In this document: in pieces, positions 44,909-46,882 of the stretch
How the letters are laid out: each line of letters begins with the position of its first letter
Position numbering within the stretch: position 1 is the first letter of the stretch
DNA from: Solimicrobium silvestre
GTDB lineage: Bacteria > Pseudomonadota > Gammaproteobacteria > Burkholderiales > Burkholderiaceae_D
Reading direction: 5' to 3'
DNA: 64,000 nucleotides
Assembly: GCF_002976435.1 (NCBI RefSeq)
Contig: NZ_PUGF01000010.1
Location: forward strand, 62,001-126,000
Notes under the pieces: generated by a model
Database searches by the model: none
Seen by the model: only the letters and a program-made list of their open reading frames with translations
Told to the model about the DNA's origin: nothing
Position numbers and translations under genes: made by a program

Positions 44909-46882
44909 ATGTCATATCAAGTCCTCGCCCGCAAATATCGCCCCAAAAGTTTTCAGACTTTGGTGGGGCAAGAGCATGTCGTACGTGCTTTAACGCATGC
45001 TTTAGAACAGCAGCGTTTGCATCACGCCTATTTATTTACCGGAACACGCGGGGTGGGCAAAACCACCTTGTCGCGGATTTTAGCCAAGTCACTCAATTGC
45101 GAAACTGGAATTACCGCTAATCCATGCGGCGTTTGCGACGCCTGCGTAGCGATAGATGCCGGCCGCTTTGTTGACTACATTGAAATGGATGCCGCCTCAA
45201 ATCGCGGTGTCGATGAAATGGCGCAATTGCTGGAGCAAGCGGTGTACGCGCCCAGCAATGCGCGCTTTAAAGTGTATATGATTGATGAGGTGCACATGCT
45301 CACCAATCATGCGTTTAACTCGATGTTAAAGACATTGGAAGAGCCGCCAGCGCACGTTAAATTTATTTTAGCCACCACAGATCCGCAAAAGATTCCCGTC
45401 ACCGTGCTGTCGCGCTGCTTGCAGTTTAATCTCAAGCAAATGCCGCTGACTGCCATCGTTGGGCATCTGGAAAATATTCTCGGACAAGAAACGATTCAAT
45501 TTGAATTGCCCGCGCTACGTTTGTTGGCGCAAGGCGCGCAAGGCTCGATGCGTGACGCGTTATCGCTGACCGATCAGGCGATTGCGTATGCTGCCGGTAC
45601 AGTTAGTTTAGAAGCGGTGCAAGGCATGTTGGGCGCACTTGATCAAACCTATTTGATTAAAATTTGCGACGCGTTGGCAGAACAAGATGGCGCTGGATTA
45701 TTAGCGGTGGCAGATCAAATGGCGACCCGTAGCTTGTCATATAAAGCGGCGTTGCAAGATCTGGCTAGCTTGTTGCATCAATTAAGTATTGCGCAATTAG
45801 TGCCGGCAGCGATACCGAATGATTTACCGGAACGCGCTGAAATTTTGCGTCTGGCAAGCTTGTTTGATGCTGAGCAAATTCAACTTTTTTATCAAATTGC
45901 AGTACATGGCCGGAATGAATTAAGTCTGGCACCCGATGAATATGCCGGCTTTAGCATGACCTTATTGCGCATGTTGGCTTTCCGTCCGGTGACGGGCGAA
46001 GCGGCGGCAATGTTGTCTGCGCCTGCGGCCAAATCATCTTCAAACGTGACCTCAAATCCGGCATCCGCTGCGATGCGATCAGCTGTTGCTACACCTGCCG
46101 CTAATCCCTCACGCCCAGCACCGGCACCGGTTGCGATGCCAGCTCAAGTTCAGGCGCAAGCCCGCACCAGTACTGGTGTTGAAGGTGTAGCTCCGGCTAA
46201 AATCAATCCGGCCATGGCCGCTTTAGCCGCACTCAATAGTCGGCGCGGCGCAGGGCGTAATGTGGAGCCCGCTTCTGCAACACCGCCCGCTCCCTTGCCT
46301 TGGGAAGAATTAGATTCCGCTGCACCTGTAACGGTGTTGGCTGAAAAAAAAACTGAATTAAATGCGGAAGCTGAATTTAATTCCGAGATTAAAACTGAAC
46401 CAGTACGTGCAGTAGCACCAGCAACATCATTACCAGCAGCGCCAATTCTGCCGCCAGCCCCAGTAATACAAGGCGTATCATTATTGTCCGGTGGCGAGTG
46501 GGATGGTAATTGGCCGCGACTTTCCGCTGGCCTGTCATTGCGTGGCGTGGCTCAGCAGTTGGCACAACAAAGTGAGTTGCTTAGTTGTGAGGTAACGCCG
46601 CATGTCATCACATTCGGTCTGCGTGTGCCGTTAGAAACCTTATTAACTGCGGGTAGTGCGGATAAATTAGCCAGTGTCTTGAGCGAACATTTTACTGTGC
46701 CAGTTAAGCTGACAACAGAAATTGGTCAGGTGCAGCGCACCGCGCACGCTGAAGCAATCGTTGAACGTGCAGTGCGCCAAGATGCGGCTGAAGGCGCGAT
46801 AAAAAATGATCTGTTAGTGCAAGGTTTGATGCGTGAATTTGGGGCGACGATAGTGCCAAATACCATTAAGCCAATTAATTAA
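44909..46882 (+). CDS. dnaX: DNA polymerase III subunits gamma/tau
   Basis: The 657-residue clamp loader ATPase has Walker A GTRGVGKTT (45-53), zinc cysteines C64, C73, C76 and C79, DEVH in YMIDEVHML and SRC sensor (LSRCLQF). A Pro/Ala-rich linker (about 370-520) joins a C-terminal tau domain that contacts helicase and polymerase. An A9 run at 46344-46352 followed at once by stops in both other frames suggests that a shorter gamma form of about 482 residues is also made. ybaB and recR follow, the classic dnaX-ybaB-recR order. Confidence 0.97.
   Translation: MSYQVLARKYRPKSFQTLVGQEHVVRALTHALEQQRLHHAYLFTGTRGVGKTTLSRILAKSLNCETGITANPCGVCDACVAIDAGRFVDYIEMDAASNRGVDEMAQLLEQAVYAPSNARFKVYMIDEVHMLTNHAFNSMLKTLEEPPAHVKFILATTDPQKIPVTVLSRCLQFNLKQMPLTAIVGHLENILGQETIQFELPALRLLAQGAQGSMRDALSLTDQAIAYAAGTVSLEAVQGMLGALDQTYLIKICDALAEQDGAGLLAVADQMATRSLSYKAALQDLASLLHQLSIAQLVPAAIPNDLPERAEILRLASLFDAEQIQLFYQIAVHGRNELSLAPDEYAGFSMTLLRMLAFRPVTGEAAAMLSAPAAKSSSNVTSNPASAAMRSAVATPAANPSRPAPAPVAMPAQVQAQARTSTGVEGVAPAKINPAMAALAALNSRRGAGRNVEPASATPPAPLPWEELDSAAPVTVLAEKKTELNAEAEFNSEIKTEPVRAVAPATSLPAAPILPPAPVIQGVSLLSGGEWDGNWPRLSAGLSLRGVAQQLAQQSELLSCEVTPHVITFGLRVPLETLLTAGSADKLASVLSEHFTVPVKLTTEIGQVQRTAHAEAIVERAVRQDAAEGAIKNDLLVQGLMREFGATIVPNTIKPIN
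46344..46383 (+). other. A9 slippage site with adjacent stops and hairpin in dnaX
   Basis: Codons 479-482 read GAA AAA AAA ACT. One extra A, or a -1 ribosomal shift, gives AAC TGA. One A fewer gives CTG AAT TAA. An inverted repeat GAATTAAAT (46355-46363) and ATTTAATTC (46375-46383) follows two bases after the run. Thermus dnaX makes gamma by slippage at an A9 tract, and E. coli by a -1 shift at A6G. Confidence 0.6.

Follow-up and report, generated by a model that had tools for sequence, protein, structure and literature searches.

The closest described counterpart of the locus reported here is the dnaX gene of Thermus thermophilus, in which slippage occurs on a run of nine A residues and stop codons lie in both alternative frames (Larsen et al. 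2000; as treated in PMC1088944, PMC3711429 and PMC5009743). In this type of system the mRNAs vary in their number of A residues, and short and long DnaX proteins are made at about 1:1. Thermus has two lysine tRNAs, which is the basis of the two-tRNA argument outlined in PMC5009743. The dnaX gene of Escherichia coli carries the slip site A_AAA_AAG with an upstream Shine-Dalgarno sequence and a downstream stem-loop (PMC5009743, PMC3711429). In addition, GeneTack collected 17 two-ORF dnaX genes from 12 genera, nine of them with ten A's, and the same account describes poly-A reporter cassettes, one of which, with nine A's, gave 40% frameshifting in E. coli (PMC3711429).

According to a 2012 review, most bacteria beyond the enterics and Thermus keep no dnaX frameshift signatures and might make no gamma (PMC3290774). 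Two published surveys are designed in such a way that shorter slipped products escape them: one retained a gene only if slippage would lengthen its product (PMC1088944), and disrupted-ORF searches such as GeneTack are stated to miss shorter products (PMC4066793). Open-access titles and abstracts included none reporting the dnaX site described below; earlier notice in subscription papers or supplements is possible.

The A9 run in the dnaX gene of Solimicrobium silvestre

The window analysed in this study, a stretch of 64,000 nucleotides, contains a dnaX gene on its forward strand (44909..46882) that was defined by an ORF call and Pfam and that encodes full-length tau (657 residues) in a single open frame. 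It is the only dnaX match above the family cut-off in the genome. The clamp-loader domains lie above cut-off at residues 20-178, 183-230 and 232-357, and a match to tau domain V (PF12170), which is below its cut-off, covers residues 534-651 (46508..46861, forward strand). The preliminary description had located an A9 run in the linker at residue 479 of 657, and this is where it is found: after domain III, nine A's occupy 46344..46352 of the forward strand, the first being the second base of codon 479. The letters at the run are GCTG AAAAAAAAA CTGAATTAA, read in frame as GCT GAA AAA AAA ACT GAA TTA. Exact A9 runs number 38 in the whole genome (21 forward and 17 reverse), and A9 alone is not rare; the rare feature is the 17-base motif GCTGAAAAAAAAACTGA at 46340..46356 (forward strand), whose family form is GCT[C/G]A9CTGA and which is distinguished by its recurrence in the family, its in-frame position and its synonymous invariance.

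Computed slips on this run lead to one of two stop codons on the forward strand. A TGA at 46354..46356 would be met with ten A's or after a -1 ribosomal shift, and also with seven A's, and a TAA at 46359..46361 would be met with eight or eleven. The predicted products have 482 residues and the C-terminus EKKN (10A), 483 residues and the C-terminus EKKLN (8A), 484 residues (11A) or 481 residues (7A), with masses of 51.3-51.6 kDa, and all would lack the region matching domain V. Nine A's give 657 residues and twelve would give 658, both about 70 kDa by computation. The earlier expectation that any one-base slip would soon meet a stop is thus borne out, the stop being reached after one or two further codons in either direction.

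This arrangement is like that of Thermus in having nine A's in a single-ORF dnaX gene with nearby stops in both other frames. It is unlike it in belonging to a distant phylum, in having only a UUU tRNA-Lys by pattern where Thermus has two lysine tRNAs, and in placing the run within a fixed 17-base motif. Furthermore, slippage has been demonstrated experimentally in Thermus, whereas for the window's dnaX gene it is predicted from sequence. As in E. coli, the short DnaX would terminate just past an A-rich stretch of the linker, with an immediate stop in the -1 frame. However, the site reads AAA-AAA-ACT rather than A_AAA_AAG, with AAA at both lysine codons in 62/62 family genes, no conserved Shine-Dalgarno sequence or stem-loop accompanies it, and there is closure of the second frame as well. 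The two-ORF genes found by GeneTack share a poly-A slip site with this locus, but they need a slip to make tau, whereas here tau is in frame and it is the short form that would need one.

Motif distribution and frame closure in the family

Our search of the family, which we take to be Oxalobacteraceae judging by the names of the listed genera, covered 145 genomes. A DnaX match was present in 138 of these, and the loci of 111 were read, of which 110 had an ORF (105 under the first motif); the other 27 were not fetched. We also examined named loci, the best 80 of at least 566 confirmed, of which 73 held a complete gene and 28 of those the site. Once identical genes had been collapsed and incomplete ones removed, 245 distinct dnaX genes were available, of which 151 are at the family level (109 from the family genomes and 42 from the named loci) and 94 belong to other families of the order. 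One family genome (G120) has two dnaX matches (C21 and C34), and the open frame of one of them is just 398 residues long, which points to duplication, a contig end or contamination.

The motif GCT(C/G)-A9-CTGA occurs exactly once per genome in 50/145 family genomes and in 18/44 genera, and its letters in reversed order, used as a control, occur in 0/145. It lies in frame inside the dnaX ORF in 47 of the 50 carrier genomes, that is, in 47/47 of the loci read that hold it, and in the other three (G061, G084 and G088) it is on a different contig from the N-terminal dnaX match. The looser form A9[C/G]TGA is present in 54/110 readable family loci. Across the 39 genus codes read, the site is present in all genomes read of 13, six are mixed and 20 are without it. 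Named carriers among the matches listed include Noviherbaspirillum, Herminiimonas, Collimonas, Glaciimonas, Oxalicibacterium, Keguizhuia and some Herbaspirillum, and the named genera among the matches listed whose loci, as read, lack the site include Undibacterium, Massilia, Duganella, Janthinobacterium and Rugamonas. The site is missing from a large part of the family, and therefore a slippage-made gamma would be dispensable in many lineages. Among the Herbaspirillum loci (L153, L155, L163, L164, L166, L173, L177 and L187), some carry the A9 run, L177 has an A8 version in which CCTGA is retained, and L163 and L166 have no run; this genus offers a natural comparison of dnaX with and without the run.

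The two alternative frames were then considered separately, with distances to stops counted from the run for the TGA, L005 and f49 figures and from later codons for the medians and the tests within a set number of codons. The frame entered by one added A, equivalent to a -1 shift, stops one codon after the run in 61/61 family genes. Of the two stop contexts named in the preliminary description, AAC TGA is therefore fixed across the family, whereas CTG-AAT-TAA, which would be read with eight A's, stands only in four of the five genomes of the genus; outside the genus, different codons end the second frame, and they do so at varying distance. The second frame (8A/11A) closes a median of 4 codons past ACT-GAx, compared with 27 under synonymous resampling, and 0/1000 replicates were as low. 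The fraction closed within 8 codons is 0.69 versus 0.27 under synonymous resampling.

Control windows in the same genes, placed 90, 60 and 30 codons upstream and 30 codons downstream, have no excess of closure, and the observed fraction was reached there by 54, 56, 184 and 152 of 200 replicates, respectively. The early closure persists for 54 sequences that are less than 50% alike downstream (0/1000 replicates) and for 19 genes chosen as one per genus code (0/1000 replicates). It is not universal: in 4/54 of the divergent carriers the first 40 codons of the second frame contain no stop. The sequence, its conservation at the nucleotide level and the closure of both off-frames beyond what codon usage gives are direct observations, and they support the view that both off-frames have been closed by selection in this family. 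A -1 ribosomal shift would require a stop in only one of the frames, whereas slippage in two directions calls for the closure of both, and thus slippage by RNA polymerase of the Thermus type is favoured. Selection of this kind also provides a way to separate transcriptional from ribosomal recoding by reading genomes.

Probable slippage by RNA polymerase and competing explanations

We consider it quite probable that the A9 run of this dnaX gene is a programmed slippage site that yields two proteins, mainly through RNA polymerase as in Thermus. The polymerase would slip on the run such that some dnaX mRNAs acquire eight, ten or eleven A's, and ribosomes on these mRNAs would stop one or two codons on to give a gamma form of 481-484 residues (51 kDa). 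This product would keep the ATPase and clamp-loading domains I-III and would be without the C-terminal domain V, and mRNAs with nine or twelve A's would yield full-length tau. Some ribosomal -1 shifting on A_AAA_AAA, which would end at the same TGA, may contribute. We infer that slippage occurs, that it takes place chiefly during transcription and not on the ribosome, and that the short form is functional. The preliminary description had likewise favoured a gamma/tau switch of the Thermus type, and its case is strengthened by the synonymous invariance of the A run and by the closure of both off-frames.

The main competing explanation is programmed -1 ribosomal frameshifting on A_AAA_AAA in the manner of E. 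coli, without transcriptional slippage. This explanation, which we judge to be unlikely but the best of the alternatives, draws on the fact that A_AAA_AAA is in the right phase and that the -1 frame meets its TGA at once in 61/61 genes, and also on a tRNA-Lys complement that is UUU only by pattern, as in E. coli (the E. coli tRNA as given in PMC5009743). It leaves unexplained the early closure of the other frame and the presence of nine A's where seven would suffice, and the family genes have neither of the stimulatory elements that it would be expected to use. The 9-bp A+T-rich inverted repeat that was noted directly after the run does exist in the window (46355..46383, forward strand, stem GAATTAAAT/ATTTAATTC), but it is not conserved, and the helper role that might be imagined for it is unsupported; we judge it not to be part of the site. 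Its folding is no better than that of shuffled sequences (z of -0.67, with 45/200 shuffles folding as well), and the stem is missing in all three congeners examined (L003, L004 and L006). Folding downstream of the site in the 62 family genes gives no hairpin signal either, the mean z being -0.37 compared with -0.25 to -0.66 in controls, and on these three grounds the hairpin was rejected as a stimulator.

A Shine-Dalgarno stimulator was also ruled out, since SD-like cores are present upstream in 6/62 family genes compared with 6.3% of control windows, which agrees with the earlier remark that such an element is lacking. One gene of the order and class comparison set (L303), which is presumably Neisseria-like, has AAGGAGG ahead of A_AAA_AAG, and thus the method detects the E. 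coli type where it is present. Neisseria is listed among the E. coli-type dnaX frameshifters in PMC3711429. Rfam gave nothing relevant in the window's dnaX gene and no dnaX match in 10 loci, and the L303 control was likewise without a match, which leaves the Rfam result with little weight.

The tRNA-Lys genes of the genome that contains the window are, by pattern, UUU only (two TTT hits), and therefore the argument from two lysine tRNAs put forward for Thermus cannot be carried over to it. A tRNA-Lys(CUU) was also considered as the cause of transcriptional slippage and was set aside, given that carriers occur both with and without CTT hits and that there is no simple link. Among the matches listed, and with a pattern that may miss genes, G029, G037, G067 and G107 are motif carriers with TTT hits only, and G016, G056, G118 and G130 are motif carriers with both TTT and CTT hits.

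The conserved nucleotides bear on a second explanation, in which the peptide A-Q/E-K-K-T-E is maintained for a protein reason, such as a binding patch in the linker, and no recoding takes place. The sequence A9CTGA is present in the same phase in 61/151 distinct complete family-level genes (62 when one A9GTGA gene, L024, is counted), at a codon that ranges from 433 to 646 in these 62 genes, whose linkers vary greatly. Both lysine codons are AAA in 62/62, where the codon usage of these genes would predict 27.9 for each. Similarly, the threonine codon is ACT in 61/62 (7.0 expected), the Gln/Glu codon ends in AA in 62/62 (27.3 expected), and the preceding alanine codon (46340-46342 in the window) is GCT in 56/58 of the genes that have alanine there (6.7 expected). 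The codon preceding the site has CT as its last two bases in 60/62 genes. The conserved GCT is accounted for neither by slippage, as it is understood, nor by the stops.

Although conservation extends to the residues in addition to the codons, a protein reason seems very unlikely to us: all synonymous positions tested favour one codon, closure is seen in frames that play no part in encoding the protein, and the sites of other families differ in residues and phases while having the same layout. To judge from these codons, the protein could persist without the run, and what is kept is the run itself. Runs of at least nine A's occur in the linker or tail of 63/151 family-level genes, compared with a mean of 7.4 and a maximum of 15 in 100 synonymous shuffles, and in the dnaX core of 0/151. 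The length of nine is partly forced by the reading frame, and therefore the exact length alone is no argument.

It is highly improbable that the run is instead a contingency locus whose length changes in the DNA and toggles long and short DnaX among cells. Homopolymers can mutate by slippage, and a C7 homopolymer in dnaX is listed among the repeat-bearing genes of Neisseria gonorrhoeae in PMC1097732. Against this, the length is nine in all 62 genes at the common place and ten in no family locus read there, with one genome per species, and in the two A8 cases that keep CTGA (L087 and L177) one base has been substituted, with the frame unbroken. Nine A's arising by chance in a low-complexity linker, which could be imagined from the variability of the linkers and the 38 exact runs in this genome, are ruled out for the family by the recurrence of the motif relative to its reversed control and by the codon-usage bias, and are contradicted as well by the frame closure and by the excess of runs over shuffles; by these measures the conservation of the A9 site is not due to chance.

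Turnover of the site in congeners, order and class

The preliminary description had proposed the conservation of the A run in relatives as a check, and the outcome is divided: the motif recurs across the family as described above, but the run is interrupted in one of five congeners. In this congener (G003, locus L005) the common place, at dnaX codon 484, reads A7G. Another A9 run, which differs in phase, is located 11 codons downstream, at codon 495, with both of its alternative frames closed (after 3 and 2 codons), and it looks like a replacement of the lost site within the genus. Plain absence of the site is common in other genera (20/39 genus codes read).

Beyond the family, we sampled 104 loci representing 49 family codes of the order, from 148 genomes with matches (L281 was without an ORF and two were incomplete), and read 40 loci of the class from 109 genomes with matches. 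In the rest of the order, 17/103 readable dnaX genes have at least eight A's in the linker or tail, compared with 6.1 expected, and one has such a run in the core. The corresponding values for the rest of the class are 6/40 and 2.9 expected, a weak excess given that some shuffles reach six, with none in the core. Runs of at least nine A's number 14 in the order sample, where 3.5 are expected and no shuffle exceeds 8, and five in the class sample, where 1.1 are expected and no shuffle exceeds 4.

The positions and phases of these 19 sites outside the family vary. Nevertheless, both frames close within 15 codons in 17/19 of them, compared with a null mean of 7.7 and a maximum of 13 in 1000 replicates, although each frame by itself stands out less, the median being reached in 158 and 38 of 1000 replicates. 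The two exceptions are genes of family code f49 that carry the same 17-base motif as the window and in which the second frame is open for 78 and 110 codons. Across the genes compared, putative slip sites are gained, lost and shifted while the layout recurs across families. On a FastTree tree of the N-terminal part, the state of the site must change 17 times among the family-level genes and 25 times across the full 245, a count judged without branch support or shuffled labels that we take to indicate only that the site state has changed repeatedly.

The window's site is a well-supported candidate example of a known slippage type, with unusual conservation and unexpected breadth. Slippage of this kind has so far been shown in few bacteria, and its spread appears to be wider than the cited papers suggest. 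A larger proposal, on which we are almost evenly divided while leaning slightly against it, is that slippage-made gamma is ancestral and common in the family and has repeatedly arisen, moved or been lost across the order and class, such that it would be a standing feature of the replisome rather than a Thermus oddity, and that the fixed 17-base motif is a nucleic-acid element whose upstream CT is part of the signal. Given that codon choice carries the signal in dozens of species, how widely gamma occurs and how it is used can be tested directly, and related genera with and without the site should provide natural comparisons.

Two further features were encountered among the loci of the order. 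In one order-mate, dnaX has a gene for a small signal recognition particle RNA nearby (L223:2678-2776, minus strand). In addition, two high-GC genes of family code f11 (L290 and L296) have, at about codons 427-449, an A10 run in the context GAA AAA AAA AAG CTGA, in which losing one A, rather than gaining one, meets the TGA at once.
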